A stretch of DNA of 55,213 bases from an uncultured Granulosicoccaceae bacterium (GTDB lineage: Bacteria > Pseudomonadota > Gammaproteobacteria > Granulosicoccales > Granulosicoccaceae). The notes below the pieces were generated by a model. The model was not told where the DNA came from, searched no databases, and saw only the letters and a list, made by a program, of their open reading frames with translations. The first letter of the stretch is position 1. Each line of letters opens with the position of its first letter. A program made the position numbers and the translations under genes. Below are positions 662 through 4,625 of this stretch, in pieces. The DNA lies in NCBI GenBank assembly GCA_938020525.1, contig CALIHW010000040.1, forward strand, positions 1 to 55,213, read 5' to 3'.

Positions 662-1864
662 TCAGAGAGCTACGGCTCGCGCCACGTCATAGCCGTGGCT
701 TTGCATCGCGTCGATAGTCGCAGTTGTTGGACCAGGGACACACTCAGTTTCCGACGTAGTTCCGTTTATCTGCCGTGCAGGTTTGGCGCGTGTATCGGCA
801 GAAATTGAGATAACTTTGACAATTGATTCTTGTGGATCAACACGCATGTTTGTGTTGACCATATGCAGCAGTTGCTCTAGTTCTGCGATAAATGCGTCAT
901 TTATATCGGCCTCAGATTCATCAATATAGAGTGTGATCGGGGCTGAATTAGTGCCGTGAGCGGCTTCGATCAGTGATGCTACCGTTGCATCAACGACTAC
1001 TTCTGGTATTGCGGTGCCTTGTTGATCAAATACAAGTGGGCACTGGTTTTTGGTACCAGATGTAGTGATTGCGCGATTTTTATTACTAACGGAATTCTGG
1101 TCACCAGCTCGATCTGAAAATGTTCTGTCACTGTGACACCTGACAATATCAACCCATTTGGAGTAGGCGCTGCATTTCTCCGTTGCGCAGTTTGCATCAA
1201 AATCAAAGAGAGTCTGGCTAGTAGTTTCCAACTGAATATCTTCAATAGAAGCCAGATCACTTGAGCCATTGGTACTATTTCGGTCGAACACTATTTCTGT
1301 GTGAGAGCCGTTATGGTTTAGCAGAATGCTATCTGGTGAGTCGGCAGGTCCGTTTTTACCGACAAATTGTTTTGGATCACGAAGACCTGTAGTGCTTCCA
1401 TCCGCAAGAATGACTAAAAGATTCTGAAAGTAGGTCATGTAGCTGACAGCATCTCGATGAGAGCCCTCTGAAAGCGGGAAAGTCTTGTCTAGAAAATCTT
1501 TTGCACACCGTACAACTCGATCGCGGCGAGCTGCATTGATGCTGCTGCCGGGCTTTAATCCCGCGGTATGCGGTATAACGTTGTCATTGTAGAGGGCGTC
1601 GTACAAGCTTCCCCACGCTGTGTTGACTGGTTTCGAGCAGGCTCGTACCGGTATGGTTGTGTCTGCTCTTGCTATTGCGGCTGATTCACATCTGTTGCTT
1701 GTGCCTGCCTTATTGGTTGTTGTCATTAGTGTTGCAAATGATTGCCAGAAAGAATCGACATCCAAAGAGGTTGCAGGAATGACCTTTTTCTCCAGGAAGC
1801 TGTGAAGCTCTGCTGCCACAGTTAAACCGTCTTGTTGCAGATATTCTGATTTAGTAGTTGTCAT
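662..1864 (-). CDS. Compact malate synthase G-like protein lacking catalytic residues
   Basis: 400 residues with recognisable malate synthase G (MSG, about 720 residues) sequence. Residues 8-45 match the MSG N-terminus (GLTVAAELHSFLEKKVIPAT, then DVDSFW). Residues 84-98 contain WGSLYDALYNDNVIP. Residues 124-190 contain FLDKTFPL..GS, DGSTTGLRDPKQFVG and ILLNHNGSHTEI. Residues 217-243 fall where MSG has its TILDCEDSVAAVDA segment. Residues 275-366 follow the stretch around IPEGI..G to the MDEERRT region, and 376-388 (VPGPTTATIDAMQ) match VPSPTAATLHALH. Absent or replaced are the HGRSLLFIRN segment (catalytic Arg338 in E. coli GlcB), the MDEERRT motif, the FLDRTGDE motif, and the whole C-terminal domain with Asp631. 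It cannot be a normal malate synthase. The frame is open with no stop or shift, so a retained non-catalytic role is possible but unproven. It is the first gene of the operon with aceA and is divergent from the ScfR regulator. Confidence 0.75.
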   Translation of the reverse strand: MTTTKSEYLQQDGLTVAAELHSFLEKKVIPATSLDVDSFWQSFATLMTTTNKAGTSNRCESAAIARADTTIPVRACSKPVNTAWGSLYDALYNDNVIPHTAGLKPGSSINAARRDRVVRCAKDFLDKTFPLSEGSHRDAVSYMTYFQNLLVILADGSTTGLRDPKQFVGKNGPADSPDSILLNHNGSHTEIVFDRNSTNGSSDLASIEDIQLETTSQTLFDFDANCATEKCSAYSKWVDIVRCHSDRTFSDRAGDQNSVSNKNRAITTSGTKNQCPLVFDQQGTAIPEVVVDATVASLIEAAHGTNSAPITLYIDESEADINDAFIAELEQLLHMVNTNMRVDPQESIVKVISISADTRAKPARQINGTTSETECVPGPTTATIDAMQSHGYDVARAVAL

Positions 1865-1952: not shown

Positions 1953-1985
1953 AATTTCACAATAGAAATTACACACTGTGAAATT
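1953..1985. promoter_or_regulatory. Perfect 9-bp inverted repeat in the divergent ScfR / malate synthase-like promoter region
   Basis: AATTTCACA (1953-1961) and TGTGAAATT (1977-1985) are exact inverted repeats separated by 15 bases. A further GAAATT lies inside the spacer at 1965-1970. The repeat ends six bases before the ATG of the regulator gene and lies about 90 bp upstream of the divergent malate synthase-like gene. It is a good candidate operator for the adjacent XRE/ScfR regulator, controlling itself and the glyoxylate-shunt operon. That role is inferred from position and symmetry. Confidence 0.55.
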
Positions 1986-1990
1986 TACAA

Positions 1991-3505
1991 ATGGAATCTC
2001 CAAAACGTTTGCTACGCAACGCACATTTTCTTGGTGTAAAGATAAGAAAGCTTAGAAAAAACAATAAATTAACTATGGAGGATTTATCAGCACGGTGTAT
2101 CAAAATTGACCCGGAAGCTGCACCCTCTGTTTCTTACATTTCGATGATTGAGCGAGGAAAGCGCACTCCGGGCAGAGCAATGCTGAGTGTCATTGCCTCT
2201 GTTTTTCAAAAAGACCCAGAGTGGTTTCTGGACGATATGCCAGTTGATGACGGGCTGGTGCCTGATAAGGGCAACCGTGGTGGCATTACAGGCATGGCGC
2301 TTGAACCGGGGTTTCTGTTCTCTAATGAGATTTTGCAGATTGCCATTCCGGAGATGCTTTCGCAGACTGGCACCACAGGCCGTCAGTTTGCACATCTTTT
2401 GATTCGTGCCCATCAAGAAGCACATCAGAATCAATTCCCCGATTTGGAACGCGCAGCTGAAAACGTAGGACAGAAGCAGATGCCGCTTTCCCTACAAGCG
2501 CTTGAGGAGATTACCCAGTCACTCGGGCTTAAAATTAAGTGGTTTGACGATTTGCCTGACGATAAGGTTGAAGAGCTGGGGGTGAGTTATGGTGGTCAGG
2601 TGAGATCTTTCTTTGAAGCACCGGACAAGATCTATTTAAACACCGAACTTGAAGCGCAACCGGTCAGAAAAAAATACGACCTTGCTGTGTATATCGGCCA
2701 TAAAATCCTGCATGACGGGGATGCCGTAAAGAGTGTGATGTTAACTGGCAAACACTATGTAAGCGGTATTCGGGAAGCCACAACCAATATCAATTTAAAG
2801 AGCGCGGTTGATGCTAAAGATATCATGCTCGCATGGCGTGATTTTGAGTGTAGTTTTTTTGCAGCAGCGCTGTTATGCCCCAAAGTGCCTTTTCGTCGCT
2901 TACTTGAACGCAACGGCTATGAAGTTAACAGCGGAGTGCTGGTTGATGTGTCGCACTCGATTGCGATGCGCCGTATGACTTCCGTATCCCCTTATCCTCA
3001 TTGGCATTATTTTGATGCATACCCTCCTGGTAGATTGAATGCGGTTTACCGTGGCAACGGTATTCCGCTGCCGTGGGGAAACATGCGCATGGTGCAGGAC
3101 CCGTGTCAGCACTGGGCTGTTTTTAGAAACCTGAATCAAAAGCCGGGTGGATCGTCTGCACAGATATCGCTGCTTGATGTAGGTGGAGAATCACGAATCT
3201 ATGCCTGCGAGTCTGTAGCAGTGAAAGATCTGGCTGGTACAAACCAAGTGCTCTGTGCGGGCGTTGATTTGAATCCGGCAATAGCAGCACAAGGACAGGA
3301 TCCGCTTTCGCTGGCAGCAGAGCTGAAAGATGCCTGTGGTGGCAGCGGTGGTTCCGCGTCGATACCAGAGTCAATCAAGAAGGAGTTGCTTCGCACCGCA
3401 CGAATTCTGAATATAACGTGGGTTGAACGTGGGATCGACAACGATGCTCGTGTAATTTGTCCGCGGAGTAGCTCCTGCCCGAGACAACCCGCATGCAATA
3501 CCTAG
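1991..3505 (+). CDS. XRE-family ScfR/RamB-type transcriptional regulator (short-chain fatty acyl regulator)
   Basis: 504 residues. An XRE helix-turn-helix occupies about residues 15-75 (VKIRKLRKNNKLTMEDLSA, then SYISMIERGKRTP). It is followed by an IrrE/ImmA-like central domain in which the zinc-protease HExxH is degenerate (YIGHKILH near 235), and a C-terminal DUF2083-type region ending in a Cys cluster (CPRSSSCPRQPAC). This architecture is that of the ScfR family, which includes RamB of corynebacteria and MccR. Characterised members sense acyl-CoA or acetate status and control glyoxylate-shunt or methylcitrate genes. The divergent position next to aceA supports control of this operon. No Shine-Dalgarno motif is obvious before the ATG, since the inverted repeat occupies the leader. 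Confidence 0.85.
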   Translation: MESPKRLLRNAHFLGVKIRKLRKNNKLTMEDLSARCIKIDPEAAPSVSYISMIERGKRTPGRAMLSVIASVFQKDPEWFLDDMPVDDGLVPDKGNRGGITGMALEPGFLFSNEILQIAIPEMLSQTGTTGRQFAHLLIRAHQEAHQNQFPDLERAAENVGQKQMPLSLQALEEITQSLGLKIKWFDDLPDDKVEELGVSYGGQVRSFFEAPDKIYLNTELEAQPVRKKYDLAVYIGHKILHDGDAVKSVMLTGKHYVSGIREATTNINLKSAVDAKDIMLAWRDFECSFFAAALLCPKVPFRRLLERNGYEVNSGVLVDVSHSIAMRRMTSVSPYPHWHYFDAYPPGRLNAVYRGNGIPLPWGNMRMVQDPCQHWAVFRNLNQKPGGSSAQISLLDVGGESRIYACESVAVKDLAGTNQVLCAGVDLNPAIAAQGQDPLSLAAELKDACGGSGGSASIPESIKKELLRTARILNITWVERGIDNDARVICPRSSSCPRQPACNT

Positions 3506-3580: not shown

Positions 3581-3600
3581 AGCTCAGGCTAGCTCAGGCA
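3581..3600. repeat. 10-bp tandem duplication spanning a stop codon
   Basis: AGCTCAGGCT and AGCTCAGGCA stand in tandem. The stop codon of the minus-strand diguanylate cyclase gene (3594-3596) lies in the second copy and is duplicated in the first. It is one of several short tandem duplications near stop codons in this window. Confidence 0.7.
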
Positions 3601-4625
3601 GCTTTAAAGTGGTCTTCCTCATCGCTGCCAAACGGTGGAGCACAAACATAACGATTACGGCCTTCGTTTTTAGCTGCATATAAAGCTTTATCTGCTGCAG
3701 TAATAAGCGATTTAGGATCAATGGCGATGGTTCCAGGATTGGCGCCTGCAACACCCAAACTGACGGTAAGTTTTATTTGCTCTTCATTCGTTACATAAAA
3801 TGATTCGCTTTCAATAGCGGCACGTGTTCGTTCAGCGAAGATTAACGCGTTAACTGGCTCAGTTTGAGGCAGTACAACACCGAACTCCTCACCACCGTAT
3901 CGTGCAACTATGTCTGACGTTCTGGCGCTGTTGCTAATAACTTCGGCGACTTTTTTTAATGCGTCATCACCTGCTTCATGACCATAGGTGTCATTGATCT
4001 CTTTGAAATTGTCAATGTCCAGCATCACCATAGATAGTGCGAGATTGTATCTGTTGCGACGCGACAACTCCCGTTTTACAACCTGATCAAAATATCGTCT
4101 GTTATAGAGTAAAGTCAATGAGTCAGTAGAGGCCATTTTCTTTAATCTATGGTTGACTTCTACAAGGGAGCGATTCGCTTCAGAGAGTTTTGCATGGCTT
4201 CCAGCCAGCTCCTTTATAAGCTTCGCGTTTTCCTTGACCAGTCGGGCGTTGGAACAAGCGCGATCAATTGTGGCCAGCAGTTCTGTGTGGTTGTCCAGCG
4301 GCTTCTGCATATAGTCGTAGGCGCCAGATTGCAGTGCTTGAAGAACGGTGTCGTAACTGTCGTAACCCGTCATGACAATAATATTGAGGTCTTTGTCCAG
4401 CAGTTTTAGGTGACGCATCAACTCAAAACCATCCATGCCACCCATCCGCACATCAGTAAGTACAACGTCTACAGGGTTAAGCGAGTAGACGTCCAGAGCT
4501 TCCTCTGCACTGAGTGCTGCAAGGGTGTTGTAGCCCGCTCTTGTAAGAACGTCCCTGACGATAGTAACGATAGCTTCTTCGTCGTCTACTACAAGGATGT
4601 GACCTTTGTCTGACAATATTGGCAT
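3594..4625 (-). CDS. Response regulator-diguanylate cyclase (REC-GGDEF)
   Basis: 343 residues. The receiver domain (residues 8-125) has the acidic pair DD14-15, phospho-acceptor D58 in VLTDVR, a T/S switch residue (T86 in IIVMTGY) and K108 in MQKPLD. A helical linker (about 125-165) rich in charged residues looks like a coiled coil. The GGDEF domain (about 166-325) has an intact GGEEF active site at 244-248 and an RxxD inhibitory site (RTSD, 235-238) exactly five residues upstream. It should therefore be an active diguanylate cyclase with product inhibition, switched by phosphorylation from a partner kinase not seen in this window. It is cytoplasmic. No neighbour suggests a specific output. 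The gene stands alone, convergent with the ScfR gene. Confidence 0.93.
   Translation of the reverse strand: MPILSDKGHILVVDDEEAIVTIVRDVLTRAGYNTLAALSAEEALDVYSLNPVDVVLTDVRMGGMDGFELMRHLKLLDKDLNIIVMTGYDSYDTVLQALQSGAYDYMQKPLDNHTELLATIDRACSNARLVKENAKLIKELAGSHAKLSEANRSLVEVNHRLKKMASTDSLTLLYNRRYFDQVVKRELSRRNRYNLALSMVMLDIDNFKEINDTYGHEAGDDALKKVAEVISNSARTSDIVARYGGEEFGVVLPQTEPVNALIFAERTRAAIESESFYVTNEEQIKLTVSLGVAGANPGTIAIDPKSLITAADKALYAAKNEGRNRYVCAPPFGSDEEDHFKAA

Follow-up and report, generated by a model that had tools for sequence, protein, structure and literature searches.

A malate synthase G relative without catalytic motifs and its association with a DUF3612 regulator in marine Gammaproteobacteria

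A 55,213-nucleotide stretch of the genome of an uncultured Granulosicoccaceae bacterium (the window) encodes a 400-amino-acid (aa) relative of malate synthase G (GlcB), named MSGi here. Motif and profile comparisons support the view that MSGi is catalytically dead, and it is probably a pseudoenzyme that arose by reduction of an operon-borne malate synthase G. The constant companion of the insertion-domain gene in the genomes surveyed is a divergent DUF3612 regulator together with a 38-bp site. Feedback of the insertion domain on this regulator, as its protein partner, is the role that we favor, with slightly less than even confidence. The features of the locus are listed in Table 1.

Table 1. 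Features of the MSGi locus (positions within the window)
Feature	Positions	Strand	Basis
aceA, isocitrate lyase, N-terminal 195 codons, GTG start, cut by contig end	1..585	-	95% identity to full relative
MSGi, malate synthase G-derived 400-aa protein without catalytic motifs	662..1864	-	Open reading frame, phmmer, Pfam, AlphaFold2, motif patterns
Remnant of the VPSPTAAT segment of full GlcB, aa 371-396	677..754	-	phmmer domain 3 (4.6 bits, weak alone); collinear in alignment
Alpha/beta insertion domain, first segment, aa 110-215	1220..1537	-	PF20658 at aa 110-184; pairwise identity
Barrel beta-1 remnant, WGSLYDALY segment, aa 83-109	1538..1618	-	54% mean pairwise identity; absent from G005 relative
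38-bp site, three AATTTyACA-like boxes (putative regulator operator)	1953..1990	+	Matrix score of 60.6 bits
DUF3612 transcription regulator, ScfR/RamB-like by layout	1991..3505	+	HTH_3 and PF12268 (DUF3612) over cutoff; IrrE-like M78 below cutoff

Homology, predicted fold, and loss of catalytic motifs

The MSGi frame is intact, begins with ATG, and is collinear with malate synthase G, as a preliminary description had proposed. The closest PDB chains in a phmmer search are those of malate synthase G (E = 1.4e-39; query residues 73 to 242 against target residues 126 to 298), with further weak stretches at query residues 12 to 46 (9.5 bits) and 371 to 396 (target residues 539 to 564). The MSG_insertion profile (PF20658) scores 90.8 bits against a gathering cutoff of 24.8 (E = 6e-26). 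An AlphaFold2 model built on a 22-row alignment is confident (pLDDT, 83.2; pTM, 0.81), and the best 50 of its 61 PDB matches at an E value of ≤0.001 are malate synthases, led by malate synthase G (best E value, 3.3e-26; query TM-score, 0.64). The corresponding model of the short form of Shewanella is poor (pLDDT, 61), and its best PDB matches are likewise malate synthase G (E = 7e-6).

MSGi shares with GlcB the fold, the collinear N-terminal region, beta-1, the insertion, and part of the barrel, but it lacks the catalytic motif patterns and the C-terminal domain. It falls far below the functional-enzyme cutoffs of TIGR01345 (160.8 versus 989.15 bits) and NF002825 (177.9 versus 565 bits). Patterns for CED, VRN, MDEERRT, FLDRTGDE, and MEDRATLR, which we take to be the catalytic motifs of malate synthase G, each match none of 10 long forms, MSGi included. 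These patterns are strict, as all five occur together in only 32 of 73 full GlcB proteins (18 of 26 linked, i.e., encoded opposite the DUF3612 regulator, and 14 of 47 unlinked). Individually, they match 72 (MDEERRT), 68 (FLDRTGDE), 65 (CED), 62 (MED), and 35 (VRN) of the 73. VRN is the worst control (19 of 26 linked and 16 of 47 unlinked GlcB, against 25 of 26 and 47 of 47 for MDEERRT), and in the 474-aa relative from G017 a VRN segment missed by the strict pattern is still visible by eye. The catalytic residues of Escherichia coli malate synthase G include Asp631 and Arg338, and the enzyme carries a domain insertion of ∼200 residues, according to PMC3832036. The earlier claim that the catalytic segments and the C-terminal domain are gone is therefore borne out. 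Its companion suggestion, that MSGi binds glyoxylate or acetyl coenzyme A (acetyl-CoA), is unsupported, because the active site is built from barrel and C-terminal parts that MSGi has lost or that are eroded in it.

MSGi is under purifying selection, as had been supposed. The dN/dS ratio is 0.028 to 0.259 in the 12 computable pairs of orthologues among 18 (six have saturated dS, and values are rough in several of the 12, where dS exceeds 1.5), and all 21 Granulosicoccaceae copies read have open frames. Compared with the enzyme, constraint is distributed the other way round: it sits in the insertion domain, and the barrel remnants are eroded. Mean pairwise identity among 10 long forms is 60% for the first insertion segment (45 pairs) versus 24% for the rest of the barrel (30 pairs), whereas the same two regions show 49% versus 70% in 47 unlinked GlcB and 67% versus 81% in 26 linked GlcB. 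Among nine long forms, the first insertion segment has a mean identity of 58%, with 22 to 31% elsewhere except in beta-1.

Size series and relationship to regulator-linked GlcB

Insertion-domain proteins form a graded size series of about 470, 400, 190, and 110 aa. An MSGi-type gene is carried by 24 of 48 Granulosicoccaceae genomes, with forms of ∼360 to 475 aa in nine of 14 genomes of the same genus and in G017; in genus g4, to which a contig named Granulosicoccus belongs, 14 genomes carry forms of ∼110 to 170 aa. Barrel segments are recognizable in the G017 protein, beta-1 is gone from that of G005 (362 aa), and the 110-aa forms retain essentially the first insertion segment, the conserved core of the family, with no barrel remnants. 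Shewanella, Vibrio, and Pseudoalteromonas possess a form of ∼150 to 235 aa, and intermediates of 334 to 403 aa occur at three loci in the Vibrio order. Marinomonas, Motilimonas, Neiella, and some Alteromonadaceae encode a full GlcB in the position of MSGi, followed (except in Neiella) by aceA. The pieces retained differ between groups: Shewanella proteins keep the second insertion segment, and the MSGi type keeps beta-1 and pieces of the barrel. In Marinomonas phaeophyticola, the linked glcB gene (L131:3692-5904) is split into frames of 435 and 325 aa, and the genome also has a second, full copy.

In an unrooted tree of 79 rows and 223 columns, a split with a support of 100/100 places 36 unlinked GlcB on one side and linked GlcB, together with every reduced form, on the other. 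MSGi groups with GlcB encoded opposite the DUF3612 regulator, apart from the canonical GlcB of its own genus, and its origin as a duplicate of the latter was rejected when grouping of the Granulosicoccaceae forms with four such GlcB was enforced (p-AU, 0.0187). The reduced proteins therefore belong with the regulator-linked lineage. The GlcB of the window genome itself is not among the 36 unlinked rows and groups with them in a larger tree. Linked GlcB form more than one clade, and two of 14 (L159 and L183) branch beside the unlinked clade. A single clade of all reduced forms, reflecting one reduction, is compatible with the data (p-AU, 0.289). Because the trees are unrooted and linked GlcB are not monophyletic, the proposed direction of change, from the operon enzyme to MSGi, is taken from the domain losses. 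Several residues are common to linked GlcB and the reduced forms but rarer in unlinked GlcB: F129 (frequency of 0.96 to 0.98 versus 0.17), Y145, an aromatic residue at 146, L150, and D155 (0.92 to 1.00 versus 0.38). Positions 146 and 147 lie at a predicted hairpin turn in the MSGi model. This shared signature can be explained by common ancestry alone.

The short form of Shewanella and Vibrio corresponds to NF006511 (PRK08951; 190 aa), which has the same insertion-domain core as MSGi but lacks the N-terminal and barrel pieces that MSGi keeps. Shewanella (279.8 bits) and Vibrio (303.3 bits) proteins exceed the NF006511 cutoff of 173 bits, and MSGi (141.7 bits) and a 110-aa form (88 bits) fall under it. 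The family name, “malate synthase,” implies an activity that, judged from these sequences, cannot be expected of its members. Copies annotated by NCBI in Vibrio parahaemolyticus, Pseudoalteromonas xiamenensis, and Vibrio tritonius comprise two labeled “malate synthase” and one labeled hypothetical, each adjoining a “DUF3612 domain-containing protein.” The initial view that no protein of this kind had been described needs narrowing, as NF006511 already lists the 190-aa form, but searches of the open-license PMC literature found no papers on DUF3612, MSG_insertion/PF20658, or PRK08951/NF006511. As far as that literature was searched, the dead-enzyme reading, the graded series, the regulator link, and the shared site are new.

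The divergent regulator and the 38-bp site

The preliminary description placed MSGi opposite an ScfR regulator. A divergent helix-turn-helix (HTH) regulator is indeed present, whereas the ScfR label draws on the HTH part and gene order: the protein scores 16.8 bits against the RamB cutoff of 700 bits (NF038139), the match being confined to residues 13 to 82, and a PDB search returned one relative, at profile positions 14 to 84 (the HTH part). Nine cysteines, including residues 449, 490, 496, and 502 near the C terminus, are ∼99 to 100% conserved in 131 regulator rows and would fit a metal or iron-sulfur site. Positions 81, 116, and 253 are near-fixed where MSGi is present (117 rows) and relaxed where it is absent (14 rows), which is a lead only, as the comparison has no control and three of the 14 rows are repeats of the same genomes. 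Relatives of the regulator lie opposite glcB-aceA in other genera. According to PMC10370305, the ScfR-family protein RamB of Paracoccus denitrificans has its gene opposite those for malate synthase and isocitrate lyase; it regulates the glyoxylate operon and binds both CoA thioesters and a pair of repeated boxes. The regulator studied here resembles RamB in its divergence from a malate synthase-isocitrate lyase operon and in the repeated boxes of its putative operator. It differs in being a DUF3612 protein, in having three boxes rather than two, and in the presence of a nonenzymatic malate synthase relative in the set.

In raw genome counts, which ignore kinship, the 394 genomes from the order that includes Vibrio mytili contain 95 with the regulator (E ≤ 1e-30; one copy each), and every one of these 95 regulators faces a divergent insertion-domain gene within 2.5 kb, head to head on the opposite strand. 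These partners have <300 codons in 66 cases, 300 to 699 in four, and ≥700 (full GlcB) in 25. The matches listed include at least 84 short copies in 68 genomes of this order, and all 68 carry the regulator. No short copy occurs among the matches listed for the 299 regulator-less genomes (one second match each in G528 and G601 was left out); 24 genomes without a listed match, checked separately, have full-length copies only, and the regulator-less G607 has an insertion-domain frame of 573 codons. In Granulosicoccaceae, the regulator accompanies the MSGi-type gene in 24 of 24 genomes. It is also found without MSGi in 13 of 37 regulator-bearing genomes of the family, in eight of which it lies directly opposite aceA, and therefore the regulator works there without MSGi.

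The site between the two genes is near-invariant across loci, with the consensus AATTTCACAATAAAAATTTCACAGTGTGAATTTTACAA; in the window it ends directly against the regulator start codon and lies 88 nt from the MSGi start. It is present upstream of the regulator at 31 of 31 loci chosen from 81, from Granulosicoccaceae to Vibrio, two of which lack an insertion-domain gene. A weight matrix built from these 31 sites gave no match of >15 bits in a shuffled control (1.04 Mb in 50-base blocks), and the site is the sole match of >8 bits in the window. No second site was found in the window plus 40 stretches of other contigs of the same genome (583,381 of 4,530,489 bases; next best, 5.0 bits), and the canonical GlcB locus of this genome is without one. 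Near called starts of insertion-domain genes, the site accompanies 80 of 80 entries of <300 aa, 21 of 22 of 300 to 699 aa, and 26 of 26 full linked entries, counts in which some genes appear twice and many sites come from the training set; the single miss is the downstream part of the split M. phaeophyticola frame. Independent cases are provided by short copies away from the regulator, all 14 of which, among those examined, have the site (G023; G028, G034, G401, and G412, where the copy is with aceA; eight of 18 extra Vibrio-order copies; and G201).

Occurrence of the site at aceA differs between groups. In Granulosicoccaceae, it is found at eight of eight aceA loci adjoining the regulator and, where the genome has a regulator but aceA is detached from it, at five of six aceA loci (the start of the sixth is 305 bases from the edge of its contig), versus none of three aceA loci in regulator-less genomes (G410, a fourth, was left out). 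In G027, G402, and G035, the regulator gene has no site in the stretch examined, though the detached aceA has one. In the Vibrio order, no aceA locus examined has the site (20 in genomes with the regulator and five in genomes without it). A blastn search of plasmid records with the 86-base site region matched seven Vibrio records and one Pseudoalteromonas record, at one place per record except for Vibrio sp. THAF190c (two places); 24 other records had E values near 8. As the site co-occurs with the regulator, it is read as its putative operator, through which the regulator would control MSGi, aceA, and itself.

Some copies occur in other surroundings. G201, from another family, encodes a distant stand-alone insertion-domain protein (L084:6048-6614), whose gene is closely preceded by a 38-bp site scoring 45.5 bits and adjoins an AMP-binding acyl-CoA synthetase-like gene (assigned by eye). 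Second and third short copies away from the regulator in the Vibrio order (L216, L217, L218, L220, L221, and L234) each have the site, and the neighbors of the extra copies vary (a Cache-domain protein, a BCCT transporter, radical SAM, GGDEF, a transposase, and aceA ∼4 kb away). A GGDEF gene recurs nearby, possibly by chance: a response-regulator GGDEF gene lies beyond the regulator in the window (3594-4625), and in Vibrio a GGDEF gene lies beyond the short gene (L235:6718-7731 and L236:6610-7623). In genus g4, G028, G034, G401, and G412 have two ∼110-aa copies each (L046, L047, L048, L049, L252, L253, L258, and L259), one with aceA and not adjoining the regulator and the other flanked by the regulator and a gene for monomeric NADP isocitrate dehydrogenase (icd).

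Possible function and implications

Trigger enzymes and pseudoenzyme regulators are enzymes, or dead enzymes, that inform a transcription factor. The role proposed for MSGi is of this general type, and a literature search found no malate synthase example. Under the partner model, the ancestral GlcB would have carried a docking domain that reported enzyme or flux status to the regulator. Once another malate synthase had taken over catalysis, the operon copy would have lost its own and kept the insertion domain, which may now serve solely for feedback, as a subunit that adjusts how the regulator acts at its operator. The analogy with RamB, rather than membership in its sequence family, makes it probable that the DUF3612 regulator senses an acyl-CoA and that it ancestrally controlled a glyoxylate operon. 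The more specific proposition, that in one GlcB lineage the insertion domain serves to dock a DUF3612 regulator, that the intact enzyme acts as a trigger enzyme, and that removal of its catalytic parts left a minimal regulator-site-domain circuit persisting in Vibrio, Shewanella, and Pseudoalteromonas, is put forward tentatively. In both, we infer a contact between domain and regulator.

Of the roles suggested at the outset, a regulatory one is probable, given the presence of the insertion-domain gene at 95 of 95 regulators and the shared site; binding of glyoxylate or acetyl-CoA and obligate partnership with AceA or the true malate synthase are not supported. The truncated aceA downstream of MSGi encodes 195 aa that match a full-length isocitrate lyase (NF005074) at 95% identity, although this N-terminal piece has no Pfam match, and any further operon partners lie beyond the contig end. 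AceA was rejected as an obligate partner, since AceA of this type (E ≤ 1e-50) was found in 31 of the 68 Vibrio-order genomes with short copies and not in the other 37. GlcB was rejected likewise: a full GlcB is encoded on another contig of the window genome (C35; 999 bits), but among 25 named genomes, nine of the 15 from Shewanella and Vibrio encode the short protein and yield no full GlcB match.

Some observations weigh against the partner model. The 13 regulator-bearing Granulosicoccaceae genomes without MSGi are one, and the three genomes whose regulator gene has no site in the stretch examined (G027, G402, and G035) are another; in addition, a divergent, site-bearing gene may be a mere target of the regulator that acts elsewhere, and copies with aceA but not the regulator, or with monomeric icd, could point to enzyme partners. 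The main alternative, possible but somewhat doubtful, is that MSGi is an output of the regulator, an adaptor or inhibitor acting on an enzyme of the isocitrate branch (AceA, isocitrate dehydrogenase, or malate synthase A). The gene order MSGi-aceA in Granulosicoccaceae, its extension to MSGi-aceA-icd in G026, and the duplicates divided between aceA and monomeric icd in G028, G034, G401, and G412 favor this role. So does the distribution of sites in Vibrio and Shewanella: these are at MSGi and the regulator and at none of 20 aceA loci, and MSGi could therefore be the sole output there; for the partner model, the same distribution means that a closed loop in these genera would need other targets, and none were found. 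However, no enzyme tested is a constant companion, as the 37 short-copy genomes without AceA illustrate, and 16 of 24 Granulosicoccaceae genomes without MSGi keep aceA. A free effector would also be expected to outlive the regulator at times, which was not seen among the matches listed for the 299 regulator-less genomes.

The remaining alternatives are weaker. It is unlikely that the insertion domain is a small-molecule or metal sensor whose link to the regulator is transcriptional only; polar and aromatic positions are conserved, but we know of no ligand site in the malate synthase G insertion domain. Very unlikely is a role in which MSGi joins the cell's full GlcB in a mixed oligomer or channels glyoxylate to it: MSGi has a predicted GlcB fold and a full GlcB is encoded in its own genome, but barrel remnants are eroded and are absent from the 110-aa forms, and the nine genomes without a full GlcB match offer no such partner. 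A decaying pseudogene held solely by operon position is highly improbable. The sizes do shrink in series, and in-frame stops lie inside the match in two of the 84 listed Vibrio-order short copies (G733 and G675) and in one regulator (G488), but the open frames, the confident predicted fold, and dN/dS ratios of 0.03 to 0.26 (some of them rough) argue against it, and the selection data rule out a plain pseudogene as a general explanation.

These results point to a function for the insertion domain of malate synthase G, and the reduced proteins, set beside the full enzyme, form a natural series down to one domain from which that function may be read. Regulator, DNA site, and putative noncatalytic partner form one testable unit. 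Malate synthase activity is not to be expected of the 110- to 200-aa “malate synthase” entries of marine gammaproteobacteria, which affects metabolic models based on annotation. If the partner model is true, some genomes keep a regulator-site-domain circuit without any full GlcB found, as in nine of the 15 Shewanella and Vibrio genomes examined. Recurrence of the insertion domain, reduced to various sizes, beside one regulator and a shared site in several groups of marine bacteria suggests that an enzyme of metabolism has become a component of regulation.
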